DNA from: Dethiobacter alkaliphilus
Lineage (GTDB): Bacteria; Bacillota; Dethiobacteria; DTU022; UBA8154
NCBI GenBank assembly: GCA_016841605.1
Contig: JAENYV010000001.1
Span: forward strand, 355,540 to 419,539
DNA length: 64,000 bases
Direction: 5' to 3'
Below are positions 18,905-52,502 of the stretch, in pieces; within the stretch, counting starts at the first letter, position 1, and each line of letters opens with the position of its first letter. The notes beneath the pieces were generated by a model. It was not told where the DNA came from and did not search any database. It saw only the letters and a program-made list of their open reading frames with translations. Position numbers and translations under genes: made by a program.

Positions 18905-18941
18905 TATTATTTTATAGTTGAGAAAAGGCGGGTGTTTCTTT

Positions 18942-19808
18942 GTGGTTTGTTTAACCAACGTTCAGAATCTTACCAACGACGATTTTAACAGTATCAGTTG
19001 TTTGGTTTACAATTCCATTGGAGTTAACCTGACCGAAGCGAAAAAAGCACTGGTCATCTCACGTCTCTCCCGGCGCCTGCGCCAATTGGGGATGGATTCC
19101 TTTACCGGGTATATCCGTTATTTGGAACAGAATCCTGCTGAATTAGAAATAGTCTTTAACTGCATTACTACCAACGTAACCAGTTTTTTCCGCGAAAAAC
19201 ACCATTTTGCTTACCTGGAGAGTACCTATTTACCAAATCTTGAAACAATGCTTTCAAAAACGGAAAGAGCTGTTCCGCAAGAGATCCGGGCCTGGTCCGC
19301 GGGCTGCTCAACCGGGGAAGAGCCTTACTCCCTGGCTATGACGTTACATAACTATTTCCGAAATAAAAAAAAGTGGAATATTAAAATTATGGCTACCGAT
19401 GTGAATACAGAGGCCTTGCGGAAAGCCCAAACCGGTATTTATGCCTTAAAAGAGGTGGAAGGAGTGCCCTATGAATTACTTAAAACCTATTTCCGGTTGG
19501 GGACAGGCCCCAACAACGGTTTTTTTAAAGTAAAAGAGAGCTTGCAAAAGCTGATCTCTTTCCGCCGCTTGAACCTTGCAAAGCCGGGCGACTACGGGTT
19601 ATCCGAACCGCTTCATATGATTTTCTGCCGCAATGTTTTCATCTACTTTGATAAGGAAACCCGCAGCAAATTGCTGCAACGGTTTTATCGCTGCCTTTTA
19701 CCCGGAGGGCTGTTATTTTTAGGACATGCTGAGTCTATTAACACTGCCTCCGATCAGGTCGGCAGGTGGCGGCTTCTTGAGCATACAATTTACCGGAAGA
19801 CGGACTAG
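18942..19808 (+). CDS. cheR: Chemoreceptor methyltransferase CheR
   Basis: CheR methylates glutamates of chemoreceptors using S-adenosylmethionine, setting receptor sensitivity. The N-terminal helical domain contains the TTNVTSFFRE motif; the Rossmann-like methyltransferase domain shows the SAM motif AWSAGCSTGEEPYSLAM, MATDVN and the late motif MIFCRNVFIYFD. The frame opens at TTG 18918, but AAAGGCGGGTG at 18924-18934 is best spaced for GTG 18942, giving about 288 residues. It is the first gene of a chemosensory run continuing through CheD, CheB, receptor, CheW, CheY and CheA. No TPR extension is present. Confidence 0.94.
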   Translation: MVCLTNVQNLTNDDFNSISCLVYNSIGVNLTEAKKALVISRLSRRLRQLGMDSFTGYIRYLEQNPAELEIVFNCITTNVTSFFREKHHFAYLESTYLPNLETMLSKTERAVPQEIRAWSAGCSTGEEPYSLAMTLHNYFRNKKKWNIKIMATDVNTEALRKAQTGIYALKEVEGVPYELLKTYFRLGTGPNNGFFKVKESLQKLISFRRLNLAKPGDYGLSEPLHMIFCRNVFIYFDKETRSKLLQRFYRCLLPGGLLFLGHAESINTASDQVGRWRLLEHTIYRKTD

Positions 19809-19901: not shown

Positions 19902-20492
19902 ATGAAAAAAAGTTTCCATCATAAACTCAACCGCGATATGTATGAAATTATTGCCGGTGATTACCATGCTGCCGGAGAGAAGAATATCGTCTTTACCACA
20001 CTGCTGGGGTCCTGTATCTCTGTTTGTTTAAAAGACAGCATTACCGGGATCGCGGGAATAAATCACTTTATGCTTCCTGGTCGGGTTACGGCGGAGGAGA
20101 TAACCGGGAGCGACGATGCCCGTTACGGTATTAACGCCATGGAATTGTTGATCAACAGCATGATGAAGCTGGGTGCGCAAAGAGATTTCCTTCAGGCCAA
20201 GATATTCGGCGGAGGACAGGTTTTGGGATTTGCTCACAACAACATTGCGTCTGCCAATATTGCTTTTGTGCTTGCTTTCCTCAAGATGGAGGAGATACCG
20301 CTCTTGGCAAGTGATGTGGGTGGTAAAGAGGGCCGCAAGCTTTTTTTCTTTCCGGACACCTTTAGTATATATATTAAGCGTATCGCCTGCGGTAGCATTT
20401 TGCAAACCACCGTACAGAACGAAGGGCGCTTTTTGCAGCGTATTCGCCGGCAACGTCACGAAGGAAGCGAGCTGATCATCTTTCACCGCTAA
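19902..20492 (+). CDS. cheD: Chemoreceptor glutamine deamidase CheD
   Basis: CheD deamidates receptor glutamines and, in Bacillus and Thermotoga, is controlled by CheC. The catalytic pair is visible: Cys38 in LLGSCISVCL and His55 in GINHFMLPG. It also has GINAMELLINSMMKLGA and FGGGQVL, typical of the family. Length is 196 residues, with an extra C-terminal tail of about 30 basic residues. AAAAAGGAG lies just upstream. No CheC gene is present in the window, so CheD may act alone or with a partner elsewhere. The order cheR-cheD-cheB suggests one transcript. Confidence 0.94.
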   Translation: MKKSFHHKLNRDMYEIIAGDYHAAGEKNIVFTTLLGSCISVCLKDSITGIAGINHFMLPGRVTAEEITGSDDARYGINAMELLINSMMKLGAQRDFLQAKIFGGGQVLGFAHNNIASANIAFVLAFLKMEEIPLLASDVGGKEGRKLFFFPDTFSIYIKRIACGSILQTTVQNEGRFLQRIRRQRHEGSELIIFHR

Positions 20493-20509: not shown

Positions 20510-21595
20510 ATGAGTTTAAAAACGATCCGTGTTTTGATTGTTGACGATTCGGCACTGGTGAGGGAAGTTTTGCAAAGGCTCTTTTCTCAAACAAAGGGTT
20601 TTGAAGTTGTGGGAACTGCTGCCGACCCCCTGCAAGCCGTCAAAAAGATTAAAGAATATAAACCGGATGTCTTAACCCTGGACCTGGAGATGCCCCGCAT
20701 GGACGGTCTTACCTTCCTGGAAAGGCTGATGTCTGTTTATCCTCTGCCGGTTGTCGTTGTCAGTTCACTGACCCGGCAAGGAAGCACGGCCGCTGTCAGG
20801 GCTCTGGAACTCGGTGCGGTAGATGTCGTTGCCAAGCCGACGGCAGGCTTGAGCAACGGCTTGAAAAACCTTTTCCCAGAAATTGTCGCCAAAATTAAAA
20901 ATGCCGCTGCTGTGAATATGGAAATGCTGCGCCGCCAGGTTAAACATGATAAGTTGCAGCGTCGTTCGGTGACGGAAACAATTGTTGCTTCAGGAAATAT
21001 AAAAGATACGATACCTCTTGTTCGCAAGGCCGACAGGGTAGTTGCTATCGGGGCTTCTACCGGAGGGACGGTAGCGGTTAAGCAGATTTTGCTGGACCTG
21101 CCGGCCAATATGCCGGGTATCTTGATTGTGTTGCATATGCCGGCCGGTTTTACTGCTTCTTACGCCCGGAGCCTTGATGTAGTCTGCCGCATACAGGTTA
21201 AGGAGGCTACGGACGGTGAGCCTCTCTCGACCGGCTGCGCTTATGTAGCCCCAGGGGGAAAGCATCTTTTGCTGGAGAAAAATGTTAAAGGTTTTTACTT
21301 GAAACTGGACAGCGGGTCTCCCGTAAACCGGCACAAACCATCGGTGGACAAAACCTTTTTTTCAGTGGCCGGTAGTGCCTCTCCCGGCAGTATGGGGATC
21401 ATCCTCACCGGCATGGGCTATGACGGCGCCAGAGGTTTGAAGGAGATGCACGACCGGGGTTTCTTGACTCTTGCCCAGGATGAGAAAAGTTCCATTGTCT
21501 TTGGCATGCCGCAGAAGGCCATCGCTTTGAATGCCGTAGATAAGGTGCTGCCTCTGCATGAAATCGCCGCGGAGATTATACGCTTCGTGCGGTGA
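20510..21595 (+). CDS. cheB: Chemoreceptor methylesterase CheB
   Basis: CheB removes receptor methyl groups when its receiver domain is phosphorylated by CheA. Residues 1-120 form the receiver (Asp12/Asp13, phosphoacceptor Asp58 in LTLDLEMPRMDG, Lys in VAKP). The methylesterase domain follows, with the nucleophile Ser in AIGASTGGT, the catalytic His in VLHMPAGFT and the Asp in TGMGYDGARG. Length (361 residues) is normal. The ribosome binding site AAGGAGG sits at the end of cheD, 12 bases before the ATG. CheR and CheB together imply methylation-based adaptation of the adjacent receptor. Confidence 0.95.
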   Translation: MSLKTIRVLIVDDSALVREVLQRLFSQTKGFEVVGTAADPLQAVKKIKEYKPDVLTLDLEMPRMDGLTFLERLMSVYPLPVVVVSSLTRQGSTAAVRALELGAVDVVAKPTAGLSNGLKNLFPEIVAKIKNAAAVNMEMLRRQVKHDKLQRRSVTETIVASGNIKDTIPLVRKADRVVAIGASTGGTVAVKQILLDLPANMPGILIVLHMPAGFTASYARSLDVVCRIQVKEATDGEPLSTGCAYVAPGGKHLLLEKNVKGFYLKLDSGSPVNRHKPSVDKTFFSVAGSASPGSMGIILTGMGYDGARGLKEMHDRGFLTLAQDEKSSIVFGMPQKAIALNAVDKVLPLHEIAAEIIRFVR

Positions 21596-21639: not shown

Positions 21640-23700
21640 ATGTTGAAAAAAATAAGTCTGAAAGTCAAGCTGATTATACTGTTTTTGCTGGTGGGATTAC
21701 TCCCCCTGGGAGTAATAGCGCTCCTGTCTTATAACAGTGCCCGGGAAGAGATCCGTTCTGAGGTCTATAAAGGGCTGGATATGTATTCCATTTTGTCAAA
21801 AGAATCCATGGATACCTACTTTGAGGAGATTTATAACGATGCCAATGTGATGGCCACTACCCGGGATATTTATCAGAGTTTTAATGTTTTGGCGGGAACA
21901 GGTTATAACACGAGCGATCCCGCCTGGACTGAGCGGACTAAGATAATGGACAATTTAATGGAAGCTTTGGCCGAGGATAAGGGCTATACCCTTATTTACT
22001 TAAGCGACATGCGGGGTAAGATTGTCTACAGTACGAACAGGGACTTCCTGGGCAAAGACATGTCGGGACGGGCTTATCTCCAGGGTTCACTGCAGGGGAG
22101 CACTACCTGGTCCGAACTTTTTTTCTCCGACTTAACAAATACAAATATTATGGCCGTCTCTGCTCCGGTGCGCAGTATGGGGCGCACCGGCAATGTGTTG
22201 GGCACCATCAATCTCGTCGTGGATGATCAGAACATTGCTTACATTTTACAAAAAGGACTTGCCGAGTTAGGGGAGTCGGCCAACGCTTATCTCCTTAATG
22301 AGACCGGTCTCTTGCTCAGTAATACCAAGTTGGGCGAGTACAGCCAGGGTGCGGCTCTGCAGCGAAGCATTAATACCAGGGCAGTGGAGATTCTTTCCGA
22401 CCCCATAAGGAACGGGAACTGGGATTTCAATACTAATGGTGAGTATCAGGACTACCTGGGTAATTCTGTGCTGGGAGCGCTCTTTGTGGCCAAGCTGGGG
22501 GAGGAGCCCGTCGGTCTGGTCATTGAGATCGGTCAGAATGAGGCCTTTCAGGGCGTAACGCAGCTGCGCAGCGCCATTATCCCCCTTATCGCCGTGTCTG
22601 CCGTTGTTATTGCTTTCGTAGCTTTCTTTGTAGCTATGACCATTGTCCGTCCTGTGCAGAAGGTCAGCGACATGACCAAAGTCCTCGCTAAAGGTGATTT
22701 TACCGTCAGAGCGGAGATCAAATCGCGCGATGAGCTTGGGCTGATGGCGAAAAACTTAAACGGAACCGTTGATATCTTAAGCGAGACCCTCGCCCGAGTG
22801 CAGGATGCTTCGGACAACGTCTCCCATGCCTCCGCGGAGCTCTCTTCCGGCAACCAGGATCTTTCCCAGCGGACAGAGGAACAGGCTTCCTCCCTGGAGG
22901 AAGTTTCTTCCACCATTGAAGAGGTCACATCTTCCCTGGAGTCCTGCTCATCCCATGCCGGCGAGGCGGACAACCTATCCAGACAGACAATGGACAGTGT
23001 GCGTAAGGGTGAAGAGGTGGTCAGGGATATGCAAGACGCCATGAGCGAGATAACCCGCTGTAGTCAGGAGATTTCCGAGATTATCTCTACTGTTAACGAT
23101 ATTGCTTTCCAGACCAATTTGTTGGCCTTAAACGCTGCTGTGGAGGCGGCCCGGGCAGGTGAACAGGGCCGGGGGTTTGCCGTAGTCGCTGCGGAAGTAC
23201 GCAACCTGGCCGGCCGCTCGGCAGAATCAGCCAAAGAGATCGAGAAATTAATTAAGGATACCATCGTCCGGGTGGAAAAGGGCAACAGGCTTATGGGCGA
23301 CACGGAGAAGGTACTGCAGGAGATCGTCTCCAACACGCAAAATACCAGCGATGTTGTCGGTGAGATTGCCGCTTCCCTGCGTGAACAGTCCACAGCGGCA
23401 GGCGATATCCGCACAGCTATCGAAGAACTTAACCAGGTTACCCAGCAGAATGCCTCACTGGTGGAGGAGATCGCCGGCTCCAGCGAAAACATGAACAGTG
23501 AGGCAGTAGAACTATACGATAGGATAAAATTTTTTAAGATTTCCACAAACGGATATAAAAAAGTCGAGCGTAAAACGGAAGTGCTGAAACAAGGCGAAAC
23601 GGCCAGGAAAGCTGTCACAAATAAAAAGCCGGCTCTCCTGTCAGCTGCGGCCAAAAGTATTGAACCGGATTTCTTTGAAGAAGATTTTGAAAAATTTTAG
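21640..23700 (+). CDS. Methyl-accepting chemotaxis receptor (dCACHE-like sensor)
   Basis: A 686-residue transmembrane chemoreceptor: TM1 at about residues 9-30, an extracytoplasmic sensor of about 280 residues (CACHE-like, with [18 protein letters not shown]), TM2 at about 310-335, HAMP domain, and a cytoplasmic signalling domain. The hairpin tip has [18 protein letters not shown] and [19 protein letters not shown], the conserved site for CheA and CheW contact. The C-terminus lacks a CheR-tethering pentapeptide and ends in an acidic [10 protein letters not shown]. It is the only classical membrane receptor in the cluster and the likely input for CheA. GAGGAGGAGG gives a strong ribosome binding site. 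Confidence 0.94.
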
Positions 23701-23715: not shown

Positions 23716-24045
23716 GTGCTGCCGAAAGGGGATGAAGAAAAAGTGCGCCTGGAGCAGGAAAGCAATGATAGTGTGGTGCTGTTTTTGGAGGGGCAGCTGG
23801 ATGTTACCAATGCCACTGAACTTAAGGAATTGCTTCATTCCCTTTACGAGCAAGCCGTCAAGCATGTAACCCTTGATTTCACTGCGGTGAACGGCATTGA
23901 TAGCAGGATTTTGGGAGTACTTCTTTTTTATCAGAAGCGTTTTAAGGAAAAGCAAGGAGAGCTCTCCATCAGGAATGTAACCAGCACTTTTATTCGAAGG
24001 TCTTTTCAGATGCTGCACCTTAATCGGGTCATCAGGGTGGAATAA
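23716..24045 (+). CDS. STAS-domain protein (anti-sigma factor antagonist-like), phosphoacceptor Ser kept
   Basis: A single STAS domain of about 100 residues, related to SpoIIAA/RsbV. The strand and helix pattern is clear (VVLFLEGQLDVTNATELKELL, HVTLDFTAVNGIDSRILGVLL). The switch serine is kept at the expected place (GIDSRILG), although the usual SSGLG context is altered to SRILG. Such proteins are phosphorylated by RsbW-like kinases and dephosphorylated by PP2C enzymes, and both activities are encoded in this region. The start is GTG 23716 or GTG 23743 (VRLEQE); neither has a perfect ribosome binding site. It lies 15 bp after the receptor gene. Confidence 0.82.
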   Translation: MLPKGDEEKVRLEQESNDSVVLFLEGQLDVTNATELKELLHSLYEQAVKHVTLDFTAVNGIDSRILGVLLFYQKRFKEKQGELSIRNVTSTFIRRSFQMLHLNRVIRVE

Positions 24046-24097
24046 AAACAATGTAGTAATAGAAAGAGATAGCATTAGAAAGGAGGAGATCAACTTG

Positions 24098-24652
24098 ATG
24101 AGAGAAGAACCACAAAAGAAAAACAATACTGTAAATTCTTTTAATGAACAACTCGCCAACCAGTCCGCGGAGAATCAGTATATTACCTTTCGTATCGGTG
24201 AAGAGGAGTACGGTATTGATATCATGCTTGTACAGGAAATTATCCGCTACAGCAAACCCACCCGCGTTTTCAATGCCAACCCTGTTATCAAGGGTGTTAT
24301 TAATTTTCGCGGCAGGGTTATCCCTATCATTGATATGCACCGCAAATTTAACTTGCCCGAGGAAGAGTATGATGGTTTTACCGTCGTCATTATTATTGAA
24401 GTGCAAAAGAAAATTATGGGGATGATTGTTGACCGTGTTTCCGACATCGTGAGCTTCAGCCCCGAAAACATCCAGCTGGTCGACCGTGAATTTGCTGAAG
24501 ATATCAAAACAGAGCATTTAAAGGGGATGGGTAAAGCGGATGAACGAATCGTTCTTTTGCTAGATCCCAACCGGGTGCTCTCCTTTGAGGAGATAAAACA
24601 ACTGGAGAAAGTGACAACTGCAGGCGAGGGACGAATGAAAACCGGAGTATAA
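24098..24652 (+). CDS. cheW: Chemotaxis coupling protein CheW
   Basis: CheW bridges chemoreceptors and CheA in the signalling array. The 184-residue protein has an N-terminal polar tail of about 27 residues and a complete CheW fold: QYITFRIGEEEYGIDIMLVQEI, VIKGVINFRGRVIPIIDMH and a C-terminal LDPNRVLSFEE. Conserved receptor/CheA contact residues in the RGRVIP loop are retained. AAGGAGGAG precedes the ATG at 24098 (a TTG at 24095 would add one residue). Only one CheW gene is present, which fits a single array built around the adjacent receptor. Confidence 0.95.
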   Translation: MREEPQKKNNTVNSFNEQLANQSAENQYITFRIGEEEYGIDIMLVQEIIRYSKPTRVFNANPVIKGVINFRGRVIPIIDMHRKFNLPEEEYDGFTVVIIIEVQKKIMGMIVDRVSDIVSFSPENIQLVDREFAEDIKTEHLKGMGKADERIVLLLDPNRVLSFEEIKQLEKVTTAGEGRMKTGV

Positions 24653-24699: not shown

Positions 24700-26523
24700 A
24701 TGGAACTGGAAAACCTGAAAAAACAAATTTGCAGAGCAACAGCAAAAATACAGGAAATCATTATGAACAGCGAAGAGGTCTTCGGGTATGTTTACAGGCA
24801 GTTGCCTGCCATTGAGAAGGAGATAGACCTCACCATGACGGAGACGGCCGTTTTGCTGGATTATTTTCGACACGCATCCGGACCGGAAACGATAGAGCAC
24901 AGCAGAGAGCAAGCTCTCTCCGGGGAAGAAATACCCAAGATTTTCCATCTGCTGCACCGGATCGAAAGCAGCTTTACCGGTACTTCGAAGGAATTAATCG
25001 GAGAAAAGGAAATGCGCAGGAGCCTTAATTTATTCATGGGAACCGAAGGCGGTCGGGATGCGGGTGTGACGGAACTGCTGGATTTGATCGCACAGGTAAA
25101 AGAGAGGTTGACGGAAATAGAAATAGTTTCGCTCAATGCCATTATCTACGCTGCTCACCTGGGTGATGAAGGACGCGCTTTCGGTGTTATCTCGGACAAA
25201 ATTAATGCTCTCTCCAATCAGGTCAGCGAGCATTATTCTTTACTGCAGGTTGATGCTCATAACCTCAGTGAGTGGAATAACCGCTTTATGGAAGGTTTCC
25301 AGGGAATAATTTTCAGCCATGAAGAACTGGATACAAAACAGCGGGAAGGATTTAAAGATCTTTTCAGTATTACCCGGAAATCTCTTGATGCAATCAGCTC
25401 TATCCTGCAAAACTTGATGGGCCGTATTAAAGCTGCTGTGGAACCGGTAGAAGAAATAATGGTTTCAATTCAGTCACAGGATATCATCCGGCAAAGCATG
25501 GAAAATTTGAATAAGTGCCTGACCGCAATCGATGAGCATGTCGATCGTTTTACAAGTGAGAGAAGCAATGGTGTTGATACCCTGCAGCTGCTCTATTTTG
25601 TTTCCCGAGTTTTGGATCTTTCCATTAAACTGGCGGATAATATTGAAGTTGAGCTTTCCACATCGTTAGCGGCACTGGAGTCCTTGTTGGCGGATATTGT
25701 TGCGCGCCTTGGCGAGATCAGGGATGGAGGCAGCCTGTCGACAGACAAAGATATTATTCCGACACTTTTTTTGCAAGCTCAGCAATTTATGGAAGATTTT
25801 GCGGCGGGGTTCAGCAACATGCAGGAACAAATTGATAGTTTCGCGGATTTAAATAAGTTTTTTTATAAGCATATGTCCGGGCTGGAAAAACGGATTGAAA
25901 TAATCAAGGGGCACGTTGATTTTTTGAAAAAGTTGGGATTCTTAACCCGTATTGAGCTGGCCCGTCTGAACAGGGGTGACGGTTCATTTGAACAGGAGAT
26001 CTCCGCAATTACCGACAGGGTTATCTCCGACGTCGACTCTAATGAAGGCTTGATTACATCTCTGAAAAAAAGATTACATAAAGATTTGCTTAACTTTGAG
26101 CAGATGCTTGTGGAAAACCGGAACAAGACCGGTGTTATGCTGCGCATAACCTGGGAAGCGCGGGAAAATCTTGAGGAGATAGAAAAAAAGATTTCCTGTG
26201 CAGTACAGTCTTTAGGAGAAAGCTGCCGCAACCTTGTCGGTGCGGTAGAAGACGACCGCTTATACCTGGAGCGGAATCAGGCGCTGCCGGCGGCCGTCAG
26301 GGATATTAAAACCTCCCTGTTGGGGCTTGCCGGTGAAGTGGAGAAGGCCATGGAAGAGGCACTGCGTTTGGCCGGACTGGAAAAATGGGAGGGGATCACT
26401 GAAGAGATGCAGGAACTTTTAGGAGGTTTGACCACCTATCTGGAGCGGTTAACAGCAAGTGAATTATTTACGGGTATGGCGATGGATGTAGGGGGCGAAA
26501 CCGGGGAACTGACGCTTTTTTAG
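24700..26523 (+). CDS. Large soluble coiled-coil protein with degenerate chemoreceptor tip and DxxxQ motif
   Basis: A 607-residue cytoplasmic, largely helical protein with no membrane segment. Residues about 135-175 read as a degenerate chemoreceptor hairpin tip: IVSLNAIIYAAHLGDEGR followed by AFGVISDKINALSNQ, where classical receptors have LLALNAAIEAARAGE and GFAVVAEEVR. At 258-266 it has QSQDIIRQS, with Asp261 and Gln265 in the D-x3-Q spacing used by CheZ phosphatases. No CheC, CheX or CheZ gene is present in the cluster, so it may be the CheY-P phosphatase, or a cytosolic array component, or both. The long C-terminal half has no recognised domain. GGGGTGAGG precedes the ATG. Function is unproven. 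Confidence 0.7.
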   Translation: MELENLKKQICRATAKIQEIIMNSEEVFGYVYRQLPAIEKEIDLTMTETAVLLDYFRHASGPETIEHSREQALSGEEIPKIFHLLHRIESSFTGTSKELIGEKEMRRSLNLFMGTEGGRDAGVTELLDLIAQVKERLTEIEIVSLNAIIYAAHLGDEGRAFGVISDKINALSNQVSEHYSLLQVDAHNLSEWNNRFMEGFQGIIFSHEELDTKQREGFKDLFSITRKSLDAISSILQNLMGRIKAAVEPVEEIMVSIQSQDIIRQSMENLNKCLTAIDEHVDRFTSERSNGVDTLQLLYFVSRVLDLSIKLADNIEVELSTSLAALESLLADIVARLGEIRDGGSLSTDKDIIPTLFLQAQQFMEDFAAGFSNMQEQIDSFADLNKFFYKHMSGLEKRIEIIKGHVDFLKKLGFLTRIELARLNRGDGSFEQEISAITDRVISDVDSNEGLITSLKKRLHKDLLNFEQMLVENRNKTGVMLRITWEARENLEEIEKKISCAVQSLGESCRNLVGAVEDDRLYLERNQALPAAVRDIKTSLLGLAGEVEKAMEEALRLAGLEKWEGITEEMQELLGGLTTYLERLTASELFTGMAMDVGGETGELTLF

Positions 26524-26565
26524 GGTAAATAAATATTGCTGGGTTAAACTCAGGGAGTGATAAGG

Positions 26566-28239
26566 GTGAGTTATAAGCCGGAAGGGCAATACGGCTGTTA
26601 TAAATGCTTTATTTTTACATTTCCTGTAATTGCTTTGCTGATCGGCTCTTTTTACCTGCTCAGCTTGCATAATTATTTACTTTATCATTCACTGGTGGAA
26701 CTGCTAGCTGCTGTTGTTGCCTTTACACTTTTCAGTATCGGCTGGAATACCCGAAAATATGCCCAAAATAAACTTATGATTATTTTCGCGGTAGGCTACC
26801 TGGTAGTGGGCGCAATTGATGTGCTGTATATCCTCTCTTTTGAGGGTATGGGCATTTTCCCCCATTACAATGCAAACCTGCCCCCACAATTTTGGATTGC
26901 CGCCCGTTTTGTAGAAGGGGTTACTGTTTTTCTTAGTCTGATTTACTGTGCCTTAATTGAAGAGTCATTGAAGAGTCCGTATCAATTATTTTTTAATGAA
27001 ATTTTTACAGCCAACAAAAAGCTGGAAAAAGATATTCAAGAGCGTAAAAATACTGAAGAAGCACTTCTGAAAAGCGAGCAAAAATTTAGAACATACGCGG
27101 AGACGGCCCCCGTCGGCCTTTTTATTATTGATGATTCGGGCGGCTTGATAGAGGTTAATCCGGCAGCATGCCGCATAAGTGGATATACACAGGATGAATT
27201 GTTGGATTTAACTATTACACAGTTGTTGGCACCTGTTTACCTGGAGGCAGGTTTAAAGCTGTTGCATGAAGCCTGGAAAAGCAATTTCGTAGAGGGAGAA
27301 GTACAGATCCGCAATAAAAACGAAAAAAATATTTGGTTGAAATTAACGGCAGTGAAGGTTGCCGAAGATTATTTGATAGCTTTTTGTAGTGATATCACCG
27401 GGAGCAAACAGGCCGAACAAAAAATAATGGAATACGCTATGGATCTTGAGTTGCAAAGTATTAAACTGGAAGAGCTGTACACAATGTTAAATGAAGAGAT
27501 TAATAAAGCCCGCCAAATTCACGAACAGACTATACCGAAGAATATTCCGACGGTAGAAGGGATTTCTTTTGCGGCTCATTACCAGCCGGCGCTGAGATTG
27601 GGCGGCGATTTCTACAAGGTTACACAGACCGGCAATAAACTGGTTATTTATCTTTCCGATGTCTCCGGACATGGTTTGGACGGCGCCATGCTGAGCGTCT
27701 TTGTCAAAGAAGCCATAGACAGCTATCTCAGCTTAAAACCCGATAATATTCATCCCCAAAAGATACTGCAGCATCTTGACAAACAGTACCGTCAAGAAAA
27801 TTATTCCTATGAATATTTTGTGGCCATTTTTCTGGCTGTTTTTCATCTGGATACGCGTCTTCTGGTCTATACTTCGGCAGGATTTCAAGACAGCCCTTTT
27901 GTTTGTATGGGAAACGGAAAAAGAACAGAGCTTCACAGTGAAGGCTTGCCCATATCTTCTTATATTCCGTTTGAACTGATGAACTTTCAGGATAACACCC
28001 TGACCCTAACTCCCGGGACAACAATTTTTTTTAATACCGACGGTTTGACAGAGCAGCGCGTCGCAGGAATCTGCTACAGTGAAATTCTCCCCAAAATTTT
28101 TTACGAAAACAGCCACCTGCCGCCCTACTTAATTGCGCAGGCTGTCTGTGAAAATTTCCGCCGTTTTAATGACGGTTCCCTGCAAGGGAAAGACGACATA
28201 ACCTTTTTGGTTATGCAGGTTAATTCGGCTTCCGACTGA
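26566..28239 (+). CDS. MASE3-PAS-PP2C membrane phosphatase (RsbU-like)
   Basis: A membrane-bound regulatory phosphatase. The first about 140 residues form a short MASE3-like sensor: several membrane segments and the hallmark AVGYLVVGAIDVLYIL, GMGIFP and PPQFWIAARFVEG. A PAS domain (about 160-280), a linker helix and an RsbU-type PP2C domain (about 320-555) follow. All PP2C metal motifs are intact: LGGDFY, LSDVSGHG and KDDITF. It should dephosphorylate a STAS protein; one is encoded 24 bp downstream and another 2.5 kb upstream. MASE3 domains usually have more membrane helices, so this one looks shortened at its N-terminus. GTG 26557 is in frame, but GGGAG at 26553-26557 fits GTG 26566. Confidence 0.85.
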   Translation: MSYKPEGQYGCYKCFIFTFPVIALLIGSFYLLSLHNYLLYHSLVELLAAVVAFTLFSIGWNTRKYAQNKLMIIFAVGYLVVGAIDVLYILSFEGMGIFPHYNANLPPQFWIAARFVEGVTVFLSLIYCALIEESLKSPYQLFFNEIFTANKKLEKDIQERKNTEEALLKSEQKFRTYAETAPVGLFIIDDSGGLIEVNPAACRISGYTQDELLDLTITQLLAPVYLEAGLKLLHEAWKSNFVEGEVQIRNKNEKNIWLKLTAVKVAEDYLIAFCSDITGSKQAEQKIMEYAMDLELQSIKLEELYTMLNEEINKARQIHEQTIPKNIPTVEGISFAAHYQPALRLGGDFYKVTQTGNKLVIYLSDVSGHGLDGAMLSVFVKEAIDSYLSLKPDNIHPQKILQHLDKQYRQENYSYEYFVAIFLAVFHLDTRLLVYTSAGFQDSPFVCMGNGKRTELHSEGLPISSYIPFELMNFQDNTLTLTPGTTIFFNTDGLTEQRVAGICYSEILPKIFYENSHLPPYLIAQAVCENFRRFNDGSLQGKDDITFLVMQVNSASD

Positions 28240-28553: not shown

Positions 28554-28934
28554 ATGGGTAGACTGATTTTTGTTGTTGATGATTCGAAAACAGTACGTGC
28601 TTCCCTGGAATATACACTCGGCAAGGGGGGCTATGATGTCGTTTCAGCGGAGAACGGTAATGACGGTCTTAAGCGTCTGGAGCAGCTGGCCGGACAGGGC
28701 AAGCGCCCGGAGATGATCATTACGGATATTAATATGCCTGTGATGGACGGTATTGCTTTTATCAAGGAAGTGAAAAAAAAAGCTGATTTGAAATTTATTC
28801 CTATCCTCATCCTTACCACCGAATCACAGGAACAAAAAAAGATGGAAGGTAAAAGTGCCGGAGCCGCCGGTTGGCTGGTTAAGCCTTTTAAACCGGAACA
28901 GCTTATCGGGGTGGTCAAAAAATTCGTTAAATAA
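28554..28934 (+). CDS. cheY: Single-domain response regulator CheY
   Basis: A stand-alone receiver of 126 residues with all functional residues: Asp9/Asp10, phosphoacceptor Asp58 in IITDINMPVMDG, Thr in ILTTES and Lys in VKPF. It should be phosphorylated by the CheA encoded immediately downstream. It has no output domain, so it acts by protein contact. No flagellar motor gene is in the window, so its target may not be FliM; the motif context KAGAAGWLVKPF-like resembles CheY of alternative-function systems. AAGGAGGTAG gives the ribosome binding site. Confidence 0.94.
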   Translation: MGRLIFVVDDSKTVRASLEYTLGKGGYDVVSAENGNDGLKRLEQLAGQGKRPEMIITDINMPVMDGIAFIKEVKKKADLKFIPILILTTESQEQKKMEGKSAGAAGWLVKPFKPEQLIGVVKKFVK

Positions 28935-28949
28935 GGGGTGACGCAATTC

Positions 28950-31070
28950 GTGGAGGATGATCTTATCCAAACATTTCTCGAAGAAGGCAGGGAGAATGTC
29001 CAGGTTATAGAGGAAGGGCTCCTTGAACTGGAGAAAACGCCGCAGGAAGAAAACCTGATCAATACCGTTTTCCGGGCCATGCATACCCTGAAAGGCGGAG
29101 CGGGACTTGTTGGCTTGACTGTTATCAGTGAACTGGCTCACAGGCTGGAGAATGTCCTTGAAACAATACGTCAGTCCGGTACCGGTATCCCGGAAGAGGC
29201 CTTTTCCATTCTTTTTTCCGGAACCGACCTTCTAAGCCGTATGCTCGAAAGCGGAGACCTGGAAGGCTCCGATTATCGGGAACAGATTGCCGAACATATT
29301 CAGGCCCTGACCATTTTTAGCGAAAGGGAGGCCCTTACCTGCCCGAAAGTCAATGCCAAGGTCATGCCTTTCCGTGACTCACCCATCGGCTATTATAAAG
29401 TCATCCTTAAATTTCGACCGGATATTTTTGAGACAGGGACCGATCCCCTGATGCTTTTGCTCGAATTGGAGGAAAACGGCGAAGTTTTGGAAAGCTTCCT
29501 TAATATGTCGGGGCTGCCCGATCTCTCTGCATTAAATGTCCACGCTTTGCATATTTACTGGACTATTTTTTTGCGTTCCAAAAAAAGCAGGGAAGAAATA
29601 GAGGATATTTTCATTTTTGTAATAGAGGATAACGAAATTAGCGTAGAAGATATTACCGCTGAAAAAGAGTACCTTTATGATCCCGATAAGCGTACTGGTG
29701 AGCTGTTAATCGAAAGGGGCTTAATTACAGCCCAAGATGTGGAGGAAGTCCTTAAAAAACAAAAGCGGACAGGTGAACTGCTGATTGCAGAGGGCAAAGT
29801 TACCGGTGGCCAGGTGGATAAAGTTATCCGTTCACAAAAGCGTTTCCGGGAACAGGAGCAATTGGAAACCATTCGTGTTGACACCCACAAACTGGAAAAT
29901 ATTTTGAACAATATTGCCGAACTTCTCATTGCTCAGTCGCGCGTTAAGGAGCTGGTTCTTCGTCTTACAGGGGGGAACAGAGCACTGGAGGCAGAGGTTT
30001 TTAACGCTTTTCAGGATTCGGACAAGATTATCCGCCTTTTGCAGGAAGAGGTTATGAATGCCAGTATGATACCCATTGGAGGCACTTTTGTCAGGTTCCA
30101 GCGTATGGCCCGCGATCTTGCCCGGGAAAAAGGCAAACAAATAGAACTTGTTATTAATGGCCGGGATACGGAGCTGGACAAGAAGGTAATCGAGCAGATA
30201 GCGGACCCCTTAAAACATCTGATCCGTAATTCTGTTGACCATGGCCTGGAGATGCCTGAGGAGAGGACGGCCCAGGGCAAATTACCTGCAGGCACCATTC
30301 ACCTTAACGCTTTTCATCAGGAAGGAAATATTGTTATTGAAATTAGTGATGACGGACGGGGCATCGACGAAGAGGCCGTCCTGGCGAAAGCAAAGGAAAG
30401 GGGGCTCGTTAAGGATGACCGGGCTCTTACTCCGGCAGAAATACAACGCTTTCTTTTCATGCCCGGTTTTTCCACAGCCCGGAAAGTTTCGGATATTTCA
30501 GGGAGGGGAGTGGGTCTGGATGTAGTGATGACTAATGTGCAAAACCTGCGCGGCAGTGTGGAGCTTTTCTCCGAAAAGGGCAAAGGTACCCGCTTTACCA
30601 TCAAACTTCCCCTAACTTTGGCCATTATCGACGGCATGATGGTCCGCGTCGGCGAAGAGCGTTTTATTATACCACTGACGGCCATTACGGAATTTATCAA
30701 AGCAAAGCCAGGTGATCTGCATATGACGGAAGGCCGGGGCATCATCCTGCACCTGCGGAAGGAACTTATCCCATACGCGGGTCTCTATCAATTGCTTAAA
30801 CTCGAGCCGGATTACTCTCAACCGACAGACGGTATTCTGGTTATCCTTAAAGACGGACAGAAGAAGATGGCCTTGCTGGTGGACGAAATTATCGGTCAGG
30901 AACAGGTTGTCATTAAGAGCATGAAGGAACATATGGAGCAGGTAGACGGTGTTGCCGGTGCAACTATCCTCGGTGACGGTAAGGTAGCTATTATCCTCGA
31001 TATATCCACCCTTTTCCGCCTTTCCAGAGAGAGGGATCGCGGGGATTCACTGATCACACATACACCTTAA
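28950..31070 (+). CDS. cheA: Chemotaxis histidine kinase CheA with tandem MshEN-like repeats
   Basis: The central kinase of the array; it phosphorylates CheY and CheB. Domains in order: HPt (1-115, phosphorylated His45 in HTLKGGAGL), a P2-like region (about 135-235), two adjacent 24-residue repeats (248-271 and 273-296: RTGELLIERGLI and RTGELLIAEGKV, each ending in Gln), a dimerisation helix pair, HATPase (N-box NSVDHGLE, G1 DDGRGID, G2 GRGVGLDV) and a C-terminal CheW-like domain. The repeats match the pattern of the MshEN c-di-GMP-binding motif except that Leu2 is Thr and the spacer is one residue. GTG 28938 is in frame, but AAGGGGTG (28933-28940) is best spaced for GTG 28950. Confidence 0.92.
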   Translation: MEDDLIQTFLEEGRENVQVIEEGLLELEKTPQEENLINTVFRAMHTLKGGAGLVGLTVISELAHRLENVLETIRQSGTGIPEEAFSILFSGTDLLSRMLESGDLEGSDYREQIAEHIQALTIFSEREALTCPKVNAKVMPFRDSPIGYYKVILKFRPDIFETGTDPLMLLLELEENGEVLESFLNMSGLPDLSALNVHALHIYWTIFLRSKKSREEIEDIFIFVIEDNEISVEDITAEKEYLYDPDKRTGELLIERGLITAQDVEEVLKKQKRTGELLIAEGKVTGGQVDKVIRSQKRFREQEQLETIRVDTHKLENILNNIAELLIAQSRVKELVLRLTGGNRALEAEVFNAFQDSDKIIRLLQEEVMNASMIPIGGTFVRFQRMARDLAREKGKQIELVINGRDTELDKKVIEQIADPLKHLIRNSVDHGLEMPEERTAQGKLPAGTIHLNAFHQEGNIVIEISDDGRGIDEEAVLAKAKERGLVKDDRALTPAEIQRFLFMPGFSTARKVSDISGRGVGLDVVMTNVQNLRGSVELFSEKGKGTRFTIKLPLTLAIIDGMMVRVGEERFIIPLTAITEFIKAKPGDLHMTEGRGIILHLRKELIPYAGLYQLLKLEPDYSQPTDGILVILKDGQKKMALLVDEIIGQEQVVIKSMKEHMEQVDGVAGATILGDGKVAIILDISTLFRLSRERDRGDSLITHTP

Positions 31071-42251: not shown

Positions 42252-42309
42252 GAATAGAGCGGCATGATCGGACATGATTGGATTAACATAAAATAAAAGA
42301 GTGTGTGCA

Positions 42310-44073
42310 ATGGAAAAACAATTAAAGGTACTGTTGACAACTGAAGGAACTTATCCCTTTCATCAGGGTGGAGTCAGCACATGGTGCGATATTCTGGTCA
42401 AGGGGCTGAAGAGTGTTAAGTACACTATCTTTAGCGTCTTAATGGATCCCTTTGTGACTCAGAAATATGAGTTGCCGGAAACGGTGACTCTGATTAAGAT
42501 GCCGTTATGGGGAACTGAGGAACCCAGCGAACATCTTCCCATATCTTTTTCGCAAACATTCTTATCAAAAAAACGAACTACCGCTCAGTCTATTAGAAAG
42601 TTCTTTATACCTTTATTTGAAGAGCTTGTTGAAGAGGTTATCAGTTCCGTAAAGAATCCTGAGCATCTGGCTCAGATTATGCTTGATCTGCACCTCTATT
42701 TTCAATATTACGAGTATAAAGTTAGCTTCAAGTCCGAAGAGGCCTGGGAAGCATACAAAAAAATAGTATTAAATTATGCGAAAGATAAGGACAGCCGCTT
42801 ATCCCGGCCGGATGTCTATTGTCTAATTCAGAGTCTGGGTTGGATTTACCGTTTTCTAAATATATTGAACACGCCGGTTCCTGACGTTGATGTTACCCAT
42901 TCCACGGCCGCGGCCTTTTGCGGTATCCCATGCGTCTTGTCCAAAATAAAGAATAAAACACCTTTTTTGCTGACGGAACACGGTGTCTATCTGCGTGAGC
43001 AATATCTGTATCTGTCAAAAAGAGAATATTCTTCTTTTTTAAATACATTTCTGATCCGTCTGGTGCATTCTATTACCAGTCTCAATTATGTGTATGCGGA
43101 TCAGGTCTCTCCGGTTTGCGCTTATAATACCAGATGGGAAAGGGAGTTCGGCATACCGGAAGAAAAAATTAAAGTTATTTACAATGGTATTGATAAAAAT
43201 GTTTTTTTACATGCGCCAGGTCAAAAACCGGCCCGTCCGACAGTGGTAACAGCAGCCCGTATAGACCCCGTCAAGGATATTGAAATGTTGATCAAAGGAG
43301 CAGCGCTGGTAAAAAAACAGATTCCCGATATCCTTTTTCTGATTTACGGTTCTATTTCTGTGCCGGCATATTACCGGCAGTGTATGGAATTACGTAAAAA
43401 ATTATTTCTTGAGGAAACAGTGATATTTGCCGGTCATACCACGAATATTGCTGCAACTTATAAAAGTTGTGATTTGGTCGCCTTGACGAGTATTTCCGAG
43501 GCTTTTCCTTATACGGTCCTGGAAGCCATGATGGCAGGAACTGCTGTAGTATCTACGGATGTGGGAGGAGTTAAAGAAGCATTGGGATCTACCGGGGTAC
43601 TGGTCCCGGTTAGAGATCATGAAAAACTTGCTGCCGAAATAATTCATTTATTGAAGGAGCCTGAACTACGGCTAACCTTGGGGAAAGAGGCGCAGGAGCG
43701 CGCCTTATCTCTTTTTACCATAGACAGGGTTTTACAAAACCATCTGCAGAGCTATGAGCATCTGTTGGAAGATATACTCCAAACGGAAGAGCAGTCAGCC
43801 GATGTCAACGGTTGGGAAACAGTTATCTCCTTAACTGATAAATTACCGGAGCAGAGAATGTGGGTCGAACGCGCTTTGGCCGTCAAAGTCGCAGGTTATT
43901 TTGACGAAGCAATTTACTGCTTTCGCTCCGCGGTCAATGTAAATCCCGCTTCTCAAGCGATACCAATATTGCTTTTAGAGCTGGCCGAAATGTACAATCA
44001 GTTGGGCCGGTACGATTTGGCTTTTCAGGAGATGGAAAAATATGTAATATATTATGAATTATTAATTGCTTAA
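42310..44073 (+). CDS. pelF: PelF-like GT4 glycosyltransferase
   Basis: PelF is the cytoplasmic glycosyltransferase that polymerises the Pel polysaccharide from UDP-sugars. The N-terminal signature LLTTEGTYPFHQGGVSTWCD closely matches PelF, and the GT-B C-terminal domain has AARIDPVKDIEMLIKGA, GHTTNIAATYKSCDLVALTS and the EAFPYTVLEAMMAGTAVV motif with the E-x7-E nucleotide-sugar site. It is 588 residues, about 80 longer than Pseudomonas PelF; the added C-terminus (about 515-588) looks like one or two TPR helices (YFDEAIYCFRSAVNVNP). The GTG at 42301 is in frame, but ATG 42310 is more likely. It opens the Pel-like part of this operon. Confidence 0.87.
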   Translation: MEKQLKVLLTTEGTYPFHQGGVSTWCDILVKGLKSVKYTIFSVLMDPFVTQKYELPETVTLIKMPLWGTEEPSEHLPISFSQTFLSKKRTTAQSIRKFFIPLFEELVEEVISSVKNPEHLAQIMLDLHLYFQYYEYKVSFKSEEAWEAYKKIVLNYAKDKDSRLSRPDVYCLIQSLGWIYRFLNILNTPVPDVDVTHSTAAAFCGIPCVLSKIKNKTPFLLTEHGVYLREQYLYLSKREYSSFLNTFLIRLVHSITSLNYVYADQVSPVCAYNTRWEREFGIPEEKIKVIYNGIDKNVFLHAPGQKPARPTVVTAARIDPVKDIEMLIKGAALVKKQIPDILFLIYGSISVPAYYRQCMELRKKLFLEETVIFAGHTTNIAATYKSCDLVALTSISEAFPYTVLEAMMAGTAVVSTDVGGVKEALGSTGVLVPVRDHEKLAAEIIHLLKEPELRLTLGKEAQERALSLFTIDRVLQNHLQSYEHLLEDILQTEEQSADVNGWETVISLTDKLPEQRMWVERALAVKVAGYFDEAIYCFRSAVNVNPASQAIPILLLELAEMYNQLGRYDLAFQEMEKYVIYYELLIA

Positions 44074-44105
44074 ACAGATTTATAATCGATGTGTGGTGAA
44101 GATGG

Positions 44106-45353
44106 ATGGCAGTAAAAATAGGTCGCTCCATTTGGGGTATCCAGCCCGGATCCTTTCATGAACTTCGCAAGTATTTGCAGACGAAGCATAGTCAACAGAA
44201 GGGGAGGTTATACCAATTAGTCCAGGATCTACAAAATGAAAATAAAAGAATACAGATGCGGATTGACTTTTTTTACTCGCCGGGTCCTGAGACATTTTTA
44301 GAAGCCAAATTGCCGGAAGTTCATGCCTCGCCGATTAGATGGGAAGAATCCTGGTTTGAAACACAATATCGTTTTACGATTCGTTTTAAAAAAAGTATAT
44401 TTGGCTTAAATAGTAAAAAGGTTAAGTTGTATCTCCGGCAGCTTTTAAAGATGCAACAGATTGATCTGGAGGAAAGCCGGCAGAAGCTTAATATATTGTC
44501 GGAAAAGCATAAAAAACTGCTGTTTGAGCTGTCTTCCCTCGAAAATATTTATAACGCTAATGCGGAGGAAGAAGCTGCAGCTTCGCTCCCTTTACCGGAA
44601 CAGGAAACAAATGAAGATAATGAAAATCTAGAAGACGAAGAAAACAGGGAAGAAGAAAAAGAAGAGATTAAGTTTCAGGAAAAGATGCGGGAACAATTTG
44701 AAGCCGAATGGAGAGAAAGATTGGAAGAACAAATCAAAGAACTTATGCTGCAGAAATTAAAAGGACAATTGTTGGTCGGAGGAGCGGAAGCGGGAGAAAA
44801 AGAAGAGTCCTGGATTGGAGACATTAAAGAACTAATGAAACAAAAAATATTAAAGGAGCAGAAGCAGAATGATGGTTATCATTCGAAAGTAATCGCCTCT
44901 CAACCCAAGGGGAAGCGTCGGAATATTTTCAGTTCTCCCACCACGTTTCCCAAGCTACGGTTAACAGTAAACGGTTCATCTTTTTGGGATGAAGATATTG
45001 AATCTTTATTGTCGCAGTACACTTGGGATGATGAGGATGGGGGCTTTTTCTCAGCACCCTCACCTTCTTTCCCACAGCCTGAAATAAAGGTGGAAAATGG
45101 TAACAACCATCAAGATTACCACATCGGATCCATAGAATCAAAAGGAAGCCCGGCGATTACCAATCAAGTCCACCTGCTCAAGAAAAAATACATTGTCGGT
45201 AAACTGGCAGGGAGCGACCTTAAAGATAGCGGTGGAAAGATGATTATTTCAAAAAACGAAGTTATTACGGAACAAGTGATGAATCAGGCTGAAGAGGAGG
45301 GAAAGCTGGCCGAGTTGATTGTCAACATGGTAATTCCCGGGTTAGGTGATTAA
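44106..45353 (+). CDS. Undescribed coiled-coil protein with DivIVA-like and PRC-barrel-like ends in the Pel-like operon
   Basis: I do not recognise this 415-residue soluble protein as a known Pel component. Two similar N-terminal stretches, IGRSIWGIQPGSFHELRKYL (about 5-24) and FKKSIFGLNSKKVKLYLRQL (about 93-112), resemble the membrane-targeting motif of DivIVA proteins, each followed by helix. A highly charged coiled coil (about 115-235, rich in Glu) and a low-complexity middle follow. The last about 60 residues (KKYIVGKLAGSDLKDSGGKM and the ITEQVMNQAEEEGKLAELIV region) resemble a PRC-barrel-like end domain. It may be a scaffold that organises the synthase. It lies 33 bp after the PelF-like gene and 2 bp before the PelG-like gene. 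Confidence 0.7.
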   Translation: MAVKIGRSIWGIQPGSFHELRKYLQTKHSQQKGRLYQLVQDLQNENKRIQMRIDFFYSPGPETFLEAKLPEVHASPIRWEESWFETQYRFTIRFKKSIFGLNSKKVKLYLRQLLKMQQIDLEESRQKLNILSEKHKKLLFELSSLENIYNANAEEEAAASLPLPEQETNEDNENLEDEENREEEKEEIKFQEKMREQFEAEWRERLEEQIKELMLQKLKGQLLVGGAEAGEKEESWIGDIKELMKQKILKEQKQNDGYHSKVIASQPKGKRRNIFSSPTTFPKLRLTVNGSSFWDEDIESLLSQYTWDDEDGGFFSAPSPSFPQPEIKVENGNNHQDYHIGSIESKGSPAITNQVHLLKKKYIVGKLAGSDLKDSGGKMIISKNEVITEQVMNQAEEEGKLAELIVNMVIPGLGD

Positions 45354-45355
45354 CT

Positions 45356-46969
45356 ATGGATGTATTTGAACCGGAAATCTTCAATGATGAAGGGGAAAAG
45401 CAGCAAAAACTAAACAGCCTGTTAAAACAAATCAAAGCCCTGCGTCTTCAACCGGAGGATCGCTACGAGATTGCCGCTTTACTTGAATCAATGGGATGGA
45501 ACGATGAGGGAGCACGGAAGAATTTCGGCGTTACTGATATCTTTGAACTGGCCTCCCAATTATGGGAGATCAGCAAATCGAATATTATTTTTTCTCCATT
45601 TCATCATATTGAGAAAACAGGTTTTGTTCAAGGGCTGTATTTGCTTATTTCCAACTTTTTAAGAGGTGTGATTTTTGCGCTGCCTATGGCAGTTTCCGTA
45701 TTTTCAATGATTACCTTGCGGTTTTCCCTCTGGTCTTATGAAAATTTATCGGTGGAACTAGCTACAGCTATTGCTATCGGCACAATTTTAAGCTTCGTAA
45801 CAGTTGGCGGTTTTATGCAGGCAATTGCCAGGCGCGGGTTTTTTTACATCACACAAAATTATTACGGTATGGCACGTAAGGTCACCTTTCAATTAATTAT
45901 AATCGGAATTTTTGCCTGCCTGGTCATTTCCGCCTGTTTATTTTTCGGAAATGCCCTTATTCAGCTCTTTCCATTCGGCCTGGTTCTCATAATTATTCTG
46001 TATTACTTTTTTTTAAACACTATCTGGTTATCTGTCACTGTTATGTATATTTTAAAAAAGGAGCTTGTTTTTACGGGTTTAATTATTATCGGAATCGGTA
46101 TTGTCTATCTGCTGTTTGTCGTATTTGCTTATAACATCATTTTTTCGCAACTGATCAGTTTGCTCCTGATTTCTTTAATGAGCATCGGTTTAGCTGTTTT
46201 CTATTTCAGAAGAGCGGAGGCCAAGGCAGAAAAAGGAATTGAACCGAAGCTTCCGAAAATGTCTGTGATGATTTATAATACGATGCCTTATTTTATCTAC
46301 GGTTTCTTGTATTTTGCCTTTTTATTTGTTGACCGGGTCATAGCCTGGTCTGTAAACAGCACTTTTTTGCCTTATCTTATTTGGTTTCGTGGAGATTATG
46401 AATTGGGTTTGGATTTTTCGTTACTGGTTTTATTAATTCCAATGGGTATTATTGAAGTACTCTTATTTAAACTGATGATAAATATTCAGCAGAGCCAAAA
46501 AAATTACTGGGGACAGGATATTGATAAAATGAACCGCGCCTATGTTCGGAAATATTTTCTTCGTTTATTTTTCATTTTTGTCGTTGCCATGTTTAGTGCC
46601 GTATTCCTGTATTATTATCTAGGTATATTTCTAGATAATATACATCCTGCATTAGGAAAGATTATTTATCAACATCCGGTAACTCATTTTGTCTTTATTT
46701 TTTCTTTGGCTTCTTATGGTTTTTTGTCTTTGGGGTTAATGAATTCCGTTACATTGTTTTCTTTATCCCAGCCCCAAAAAGTCAACAGAGCTATTACAAT
46801 TGCCTTGTTGGCAAATTTACTTGTAGGTTTCCTTTTGAGCCGTTGGTTCGGTTACAAGTTCGCTGTCATCGGTTTGATCACCGGATCAATAGTTTTTTTT
46901 ATTTTGTCATCACGGCAAGTTTATAAGGTCATGCGAAAACTGGATTATTACGTGTACTCCTCTTCGTGA
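45356..46969 (+). CDS. pelG: PelG-like polysaccharide transporter/flippase
   Basis: A 537-residue membrane protein with about twelve helices (from residue about 90 to 530), the size and topology of PelG, a MOP/MATE-related protein that moves Pel across the membrane with PelF. The GGFMQAIARRGFFYITQNYY region after the third helix corresponds to PelG by position. It differs from Pseudomonas PelG in having an N-terminal cytoplasmic extension of about 90 residues rather than starting with the short GIGFELRKL segment. It begins 2 bp after the coiled-coil gene, so translation is coupled. The call rests on topology, size and position next to PelF more than on strong motifs. Confidence 0.7.
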   Translation: MDVFEPEIFNDEGEKQQKLNSLLKQIKALRLQPEDRYEIAALLESMGWNDEGARKNFGVTDIFELASQLWEISKSNIIFSPFHHIEKTGFVQGLYLLISNFLRGVIFALPMAVSVFSMITLRFSLWSYENLSVELATAIAIGTILSFVTVGGFMQAIARRGFFYITQNYYGMARKVTFQLIIIGIFACLVISACLFFGNALIQLFPFGLVLIIILYYFFLNTIWLSVTVMYILKKELVFTGLIIIGIGIVYLLFVVFAYNIIFSQLISLLLISLMSIGLAVFYFRRAEAKAEKGIEPKLPKMSVMIYNTMPYFIYGFLYFAFLFVDRVIAWSVNSTFLPYLIWFRGDYELGLDFSLLVLLIPMGIIEVLLFKLMINIQQSQKNYWGQDIDKMNRAYVRKYFLRLFFIFVVAMFSAVFLYYYLGIFLDNIHPALGKIIYQHPVTHFVFIFSLASYGFLSLGLMNSVTLFSLSQPQKVNRAITIALLANLLVGFLLSRWFGYKFAVIGLITGSIVFFILSSRQVYKVMRKLDYYVYSSS

Positions 46970-46984
46970 AATGAGGAAAATAGT

Positions 46985-48787: not shown

Positions 48788-48809
48788 AATATGGAGTGTT
48801 TGGCGATAA

Positions 48810-50669: not shown

Positions 50670-51451
50670 TGATGAAAGAACGCAGGGAATTGTTTCAAAA
50701 AGCCCGCAGTTATGCTTTGTATTATGGAAAGAGTGAAGCTGGTAAATTGGCCCATTATGATATGGTCATTGTTGAACCGGGTGCTCAATCGGCAAAAAAT
50801 ATTCAAGCTTTACATGCAATGAAAACGTTGGTTTTTGCTTATGTCTCCATTATGGAAATCGGCCCTCTTCATACCCTGTACCCGATGCTGAAGGAAGAAG
50901 ATTTCCTGCAGGTTAAAGGGAACAAAATTTGCAAGGAAGGTTACGATACGTATGTGCTCAATTTAAAATCAAAAAGATGGTTGGGTCTATTGTATCACCA
51001 TATCGGTAATCTCCTCCTGCACCAGGGATACGATGGTATTTTTATGGATACAATTGGTAACGCGGAAGACCCGATTATTCCTCTAATTGAAAAAAAAGCG
51101 CAAATCACCAAAGCAACAGAGCTGGTACGCAATCTTCGCCGGTTGTTCCCAAACCATGTCCTGATTCAAAATAATGGCCTGGAATATTTATGTTCGCAAA
51201 CAGGAGAATATCTGGACGGATTATGCTGGGAAAACCCCCTATTTGCCTATGCTGATAGTCAGGAATGGTGCCGAAAAATATTGGAGAGAATCGTTGGATT
51301 AAAAAGGAAATATGGTGTGAGAACGCTTTTTCTGCATAATGAAAGCCAAATTCGCATGACACCGTCAGCCGGAATTCGAGCACAAGCGATCGCGGATAAA
51401 TATGCTTTTTTATATTATACTGCCGGGGATCATTATCTGGCGCTTCCGTAG
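50669..51451 (+). CDS. GH114/TM1410-like glycoside hydrolase-type protein (PelA-hydrolase-like)
   Basis: A 260-residue TIM-barrel protein. Family features are visible: SYALYYG near the start, HYDMVIVEPG, FAYVSIMEIG, GYDGIFMDTIGN (with a catalytic-type Asp), and LIQNNGLEYL. The GH114/GH166 group cleaves galactosamine-containing polymers, and PelA in Pseudomonas has a related hydrolase domain acting on Pel. No signal peptide is present, so the enzyme would be cytoplasmic unless exported otherwise; no separate deacetylase domain is attached. It starts 1 bp inside the stop codon of the preceding gene (ATG 50669; ATG 50672 possible), so it is coupled to the HD-GYP-like gene. Confidence 0.78.
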   Translation: MMKERRELFQKARSYALYYGKSEAGKLAHYDMVIVEPGAQSAKNIQALHAMKTLVFAYVSIMEIGPLHTLYPMLKEEDFLQVKGNKICKEGYDTYVLNLKSKRWLGLLYHHIGNLLLHQGYDGIFMDTIGNAEDPIIPLIEKKAQITKATELVRNLRRLFPNHVLIQNNGLEYLCSQTGEYLDGLCWENPLFAYADSQEWCRKILERIVGLKRKYGVRTLFLHNESQIRMTPSAGIRAQAIADKYAFLYYTAGDHYLALP

Positions 51452-51516
51452 CAATTCCATCATAGACTGTAGAGAGTATCTTCATGGAAAAATGAAGACA
51501 AGGGTGGGTTGGTTTT

Positions 51517-52419: not shown

Positions 52420-52455
52420 CGAGCCAAAAGCCGCCGGATGGCGGCTTTTGGCTCG
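52420..52455. terminator. 16-bp perfect hairpin terminator after the Pel-like operon
   Basis: CGAGCCAAAAGCCGCC (52420-52435) pairs perfectly with its inverse at 52440-52455 around GGAT. The inner AAAAGCCGCC/GGCGGCTTTT core is a classic intrinsic terminator able to act in both directions. Confidence 0.85.
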
Positions 52456-52471
52456 CTTATGGTTAATTTCA

Positions 52472-52502
52472 GGTCGGCAGAACTCCTGTTACGGCCTTTT
52501 TT
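52472..52502 (+). terminator. Second terminator, similar to the one at 31167
   Basis: GGTCG-GCAG (52472-52480) pairs with CTGT and CGGCC (to 52496) using wobble pairs, and six T follow (52497-52502). Its flanks TTTCAGG and loop AGAAC match the che terminator, so the same terminator cassette occurs twice about 21 kb apart. Confidence 0.7.

Follow-up and report, generated by a model that had tools for sequence, protein, structure and literature searches.

The window analysed here, a stretch of 64,000 nucleotides from Dethiobacter alkaliphilus, contains a chemotaxis (che) cluster on its forward strand. The cluster runs from CheR (18918-19808), CheD (19902-20492) and CheB (20510-21595) through a chemoreceptor of dCache-HAMP-MCPsignal architecture (21640-23700), a STAS-domain protein (23716-24045; PF01740) and CheW (24095-24652; PF01584) to a 607-residue MCP-like helical protein with a weak PF00015 match (24700-26523). 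A MASE3-PAS-SpoIIE phosphatase (26557-28239) also lies within the cluster, and a CheY-like response regulator (28554-28934; PF00072, E = 2.3e-25) stands immediately upstream of cheA, which it adjoins in several relatives too. The STAS-domain protein and the MCP-like protein are likewise conserved beside cheA in relatives.

The CheA kinase is encoded at 28950-31070 on the same strand and is 706 residues long. We favour the GTG at 28950 as its start codon because AAGGGG lies about 12 bases upstream; an alternative in-frame GTG at 28938 would give a protein of 710 residues. Pfam matches identify the protein as a CheA, with the Hpt (P1; 28959-29198, residues 8-87; PF01627, 1.3e-16), H-kinase_dim dimerisation (P3; 29865-30059; PF02895, 1.5e-12), HATPase_c (P4; 30204-30617; PF02518, 9.8e-20) and CheW-like (P5; 30633-31019; PF01584, 2.6e-26) domains all present. 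The CheY-binding domain P2 is an auxiliary part of these kinases and is absent from over half of them. The corresponding region of the window protein has no Pfam match; at 29388-29651 AlphaFold predicts a ferredoxin fold (beta-alpha-beta-beta-alpha-beta), which Foldseek aligns with P2 of Thermotoga maritima CheA (1u0s_A; TMt 0.64, E = 0.013), other ferredoxin-like proteins ranking above it. On the strength of the model, the name 'P2-like' for this domain is reasonable but not proven. The window protein thus has P1, P2-like, P3, P4 and P5 domains in common with the canonical CheAs of Escherichia coli and T. maritima, but its P2 is too divergent for Pfam and an extra module of repeats separates P2 from P3. 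Two orthologs (L010 and L011), with frames of 842-849 residues, carry an additional P2-like domain, located ahead of the one that they share with the window protein.

The extra module consists of two adjacent repeats of 24 residues, RTGELLIERGLITAQDVEEVLKKQ (motif I; 29691-29762) and RTGELLIAEGKVTGGQVDKVIRSQ (motif II; 29766-29837), recognised both in the sequence and by profile matches and separated by a single Lys (29763-29765). They occupy residues 248-271 and 273-296 in the numbering from GTG 28950 (252-275 and 277-300 in that from GTG 28938), and P3 starts nine residues past motif II. The initial annotation had described the reading frame and the two repeats at these residues in the 28950 numbering, and had noted that Arg 1, Gly 10 and Gln 24 of each repeat follow the pattern of the c-di-GMP-binding MshEN domain; these facts hold. 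The two repeats are identical at 12 of 24 residues, against at most 10 in 200 shuffles of CheA. Of their 72 bases 42 agree, and third codon positions coincide in only 11 of 24 cases. Across species, one repeat I shares on average 12.8 residues with another and 9.9 with the repeats II; because repeat I resembles the repeat I of other species more than it does the repeats II, the duplication is old. This pattern, together with the conservation of spacer and repeats in orthologs, led us to reject a recent duplication at this locus or an artefact of the reading frame in the window genome. We also discarded a reading in which QKRTG is the end of the spacer and motif II lacks RLG, as relatives read QKRIGELL, QKKIGELL or QRKLGEIL.

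Profile searches relate the segment to MshEN. The NCBIfam model NF053729 (MshE-related c-di-GMP-binding motif) has 53 residues, the length of the two-motif MshE site (24 + 5 + 24), and a cut-off of 38 bits. The isolated CheA segment scores 43.9 bits (E = 1.5e-11) and the open frame reaches 38.9 bits in the genome search, while the whole CheA protein, at 35.2 bits, falls below the cut-off. The same model also matches most of the homologous CheA segments. A profile built from the window CheA and three orthologs finds MshE of Vibrio cholerae (5HTL) with an E-value of 7e-6, as well as Thermus PilF domains; those alignments that span both motifs carry a four-residue gap at or near the spacer. The Pfam MshEN family (PF05157) gives no match to the window CheA, even at an E-value of 10. 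The profile search that the initial annotation had proposed therefore has a divided outcome, NF053729 scoring the segment above its cut-off and PF05157 remaining silent, and the likeness to MshEN stands as kinship, through NF053729 and the profile matches to 5HTL and PilF, but not as canonical form.

Judged by these comparisons, the repeats are almost certainly kin to MshEN. They could otherwise be an ordinary helical repeat whose resemblance is due to chance, as amphipathic helices are of low complexity and Pfam does not recognise the segment. This we regard as extremely improbable and reject on the E-values of both profile searches; periodicity and contact residues also agree with MshEN, and a neighbouring CheA clade has spacers of 6-8 residues and near-canonical motifs (L050 scores 56.3 bits with NF053729).

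The repeats are nevertheless not a canonical MshEN domain. Both window motifs have a residue from the set Arg, Lys and Leu at position 1, with Gly at position 3 and Gln at position 24, and share with V. cholerae MshE the 24-residue length, Arg 1, Gly 3, hydrophobic residues at positions 6, 7, 12, 17 and 21, Gly 10 and Gln 24. Unlike MshE, the CheA has a spacer of one residue instead of five, Thr at position 2 of both motifs, where a hydrophobic residue is expected, and Lys at position 11 of motif II; it also lacks a C-terminal MshEN subdomain and is itself a kinase, whereas MshE is an ATPase. The spacer and Thr 2 had been correctly listed as deviations in the initial annotation, to which Lys 11 is now added. 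For comparison, 16 genuine motif pairs were read from other MshEN proteins in the phylum (one overlapping regex match set aside): the spacer is five residues long in 14 of them and six in two. Position 2 of motifs I and II is Leu and Ile in the ortholog L010, and Val and Ile in L011. With Thr 2 in both repeats and Lys 11 in repeat II, the window CheA falls outside even the relaxed pattern that Wang et al. (2016; PMC5013675) used for searching. According to the same study, the position-2 Leu of MshE stacks on a guanine, and a single change at any conserved hydrophobic residue lowers affinity more than 10-fold; because Thr occupies position 2 of both repeats, any binding by the window CheA may be weak. 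The N-terminal subdomain of PilF binds c-di-GMP by itself, with a Kd near 60 nM (PMC11731258). GSPII-B of Thermus thermophilus PilF (8pdk, 8pfa) belongs to the same motif family and tolerates Lys or Leu in place of Arg at position 1, where Lys is common in the CheA set; it differs from the window CheA in its consensus Leu at position 2 and its normal spacing.

In the AlphaFold model, which is unliganded and built from a four-row alignment, the repeats are modelled as three helices, a2 running into a3 without a break (pLDDT 83-88 over most of the repeats). This prediction departs from the four-helix MshEN bundle and so disagrees with the fold that the initial annotation had anticipated. The merged helix would occupy the backbone amides of Gly-Glu in repeat II. 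A fold search with the repeat model returned only ribosomal or unrelated helical proteins (best Z 5.3), with no MshEN among them, a result that speaks neither for nor against the MshEN fold. In apo PilF, an extra helix turn in the site must unfold for c-di-GMP to bind (PMC11731258), so the fused helix of our model does not preclude binding. An invariant Gly would also be odd in a helix that is simply continuous.

Conservation was assessed over the 48 motif positions of 12 CheA sequences with a one-residue spacer. Gly 3 is invariant in both motifs, 23 of 24 copies retain Gln 24, and every copy has Arg or Lys at position 1. Mean column entropy is 0.39 at positions 1, 3 and 24 and 0.78 at six contact positions, against 1.29 overall, with p = 0.00075 and 0.0036, respectively, in 20,000 permutations; these values serve as guides, the columns not being independent and the sequences being related. 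Glu 4, Leu 6 of motif II and Leu 21 of motif I are equally fixed. On this alignment R/K1, G3 and Q24, which contact c-di-GMP in MshE, are among the most conserved positions, and simple decay is disfavoured because the contact positions are better conserved than the remainder. Thr at position 2 of motif I occurs in seven of the 12 sequences, mostly as KTG, and, being so common in this set, is inherited; only the window protein, among the CheAs compared, has Thr 2 in both motifs.

Orthologs of the window CheA with the one-residue spacer were found at L009/L038, L010/L039, L011/L040 and L043-L047, and the same spacer is seen in a further CheA type that has two Hpt-like stretches (L049, L051, L056). 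Spacers of 6 to 8 residues occur in five further sequences (L050, L057, L062, L098, L099), a single motif in L067 and degenerate repeats in L048, and the CheAs of two close relatives (L012, L013) have no repeats. The module and its spacer thus recur in CheAs of several families, where CheY, CheA, CheR, CheD, STAS and MCP-like proteins again stand side by side. When 398 genomes were sampled evenly across the phylum, a module-bearing CheA was found in 16, the window genome and the single-motif case included; the next hits, set off by a score gap from 63.5 to 52.3 bits, look like ATPases, judging by their frame length and profile coverage. A scan of genome contigs gave three loci, whose CheA sequences match some already found in the relatives' genomes. 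No module-bearing CheA was found in the plasmids or in the viral contigs searched, and none of the plasmid CheAs with a recovered frame (L082-L084, three of four loci) has the module. The decayed repeats of L048 read KQKKIGEEKGLTSRDD, followed by a Lys/Glu-rich linker, in a genome (G148) with 31 GGDEF matches.

In a midpoint-rooted tree of the kinase core, from which the repeats were excluded and in which L049 and L051, without L056, stand for the type with two Hpt-like stretches, the sequences with spacers of 6 to 8 form one well-supported clade that groups with the window clade, and L012 and L013 are nested losses. L049 and L051, and the single-motif L067, sit apart from the window clade. 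The one-residue spacer requires four changes on this tree, several of the joins involving long branches, and with the L049/L051 clade separate from the window clade the tree gives no support for a single origin of this type. Because it recurs in two CheA lineages of the phylum, the compressed spacer is, as far as sequence comparison can tell, a stable, inherited variant and not a local defect.

The window genome carries c-di-GMP machinery: GGDEF is matched 16 times above cut-off, HD_5 15 times and PilZ twice, and there is one canonical MshEN protein. GGDEF proteins occur in all 18 other genomes checked with an intact, single or degenerate module, but as two genomes without the module have them as well, their presence does not discriminate. 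Among relatives, a PAS-GGDEF-HD-GYP gene can lie inside the che cluster (L122:2740-4527) or an RR-HD-GYP gene about 5 kb from cheA (L115:15800-16810). Exopolysaccharide genes begin about 8 kb downstream of cheA. One gene row (42301-59759) resembles three exopolysaccharide types: PelF scores 160 bits against a cut-off of 100, and it is accompanied by two matches below their cut-offs, a PgaC/IcaA-like synthase and a BcsB-like protein. Within it, the membrane protein at 53876-54736 has a degenerate GGDEF domain in which VNGVAEI replaces the GGDEF motif and, by analogy with PelD, is possibly a receptor; the C-terminal part of the product of 48810-50669 is HD-GYP-like, with the HHExxDGxGYP motif kept and the HD doublet seemingly lost. 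Elsewhere the window genome has a second chemosensory cluster with MshEN. There a 324-residue protein (L130:8308-9282, contig C9) combines several MshEN-like motifs (NF053729, 71.8 bits) with a CheX domain that comes after them, and its gene precedes those for a response regulator, a CBS/Hpt/HATPase kinase and a chemoreceptor. A REC-GGDEF diguanylate cyclase (L128:14612-15613, contig C7) adjoins another CheA cluster of the genome, as in Wsp-type systems.

Our preferred reading, to which we give a probability of about 0.45, takes the repeats for a regulatory module that derives from MshEN, belongs to a conserved che cluster and is plausibly tuned by c-di-GMP. The module sits between the P2-like and P3 domains of a CheA that belongs to a conserved CheY-CheA-CheR-CheD-STAS-MCP cluster. 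Each repeat would provide one half-site, and the pair would most likely bind, or still respond to, c-di-GMP, contacting it through R/K1, the backbone of G3-E4, the hydrophobic positions 2, 17 and 21, and Q24. Binding would change the helix that runs into P3 and so the placing of P1 and P2, and hence the rate of autophosphorylation. Binding in the manner of MshE would require repeat II either to unwind its first turn or to pair that turn with the other subunit. Most likely, then, the module would act as a c-di-GMP-responsive input at the P2-P3 junction. We put the chance that the family with the one-residue spacer binds c-di-GMP at even; that the window CheA itself does so at physiological levels is possible, if somewhat short of even.

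The module may instead be a former MshEN domain that has lost c-di-GMP binding, its helices now serving to space P2 from P3 or to provide a docking surface between them. Such loss is known from other MshEN descendants (XpsE; PilF GSPII-A), and it would fit Thr 2, the compressed spacer and the predicted continuous a2-a3 helix, as well as the single motif of L067, the degenerate repeats of L048 and the absence of the module from L012 and L013. A plain linker, however, would not need contact positions that are better conserved than the rest, or a Gly within the predicted helix in every copy; we hold this reading to be possible, with the odds somewhat against it. Shortened hinges favour domain swapping, and a spacer too short for a four-helix bundle within one chain might let motif I pair with motif II of the other subunit in the P3-linked dimer, giving two c-di-GMP sites. 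The long a2-a3 helix, predicted with hairpins at its two ends, the nearby start of the P3 dimer domain and the existence of a single-motif CheA all suit this arrangement, but the monomer model was built from four sequences; we consider the arrangement distinctly improbable. Somewhat less remote, yet unlikely, is the broader proposal that the compressed MshEN of the two CheA lineages binds c-di-GMP either across the dimer or through helix unwinding and directly gates the kinase.

Wang et al. (2016; PMC5013675) already state, in one sentence accompanied by a supplementary table, that MshEN associates with CheA and CheX, so the fusion of MshEN with CheA is not new; in the accessible part of that paper, shortened spacers are not mentioned and function is not tested. 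The auxiliary-domain section of the domain survey by Berry et al. (2023; PMC10782961) does not include MshEN, and we found no study of an MshEN-CheA fusion in the open-access literature searched. As far as can be told, neither the conserved compressed spacer nor its distribution has been described before.

The homolog series, with spacers of 6-8 residues, of one residue, a single motif or no motif, offers natural variants for working out what an MshEN site requires. Where c-di-GMP is known to be tied to chemosensory signalling, the direction is mostly the opposite one, with a CheA pathway that drives a diguanylate cyclase, or the effect falls on other components. If our preferred reading of an MshEN-derived regulatory module is true, a receptor module inside CheA would let c-di-GMP set the activity of the kinase directly.
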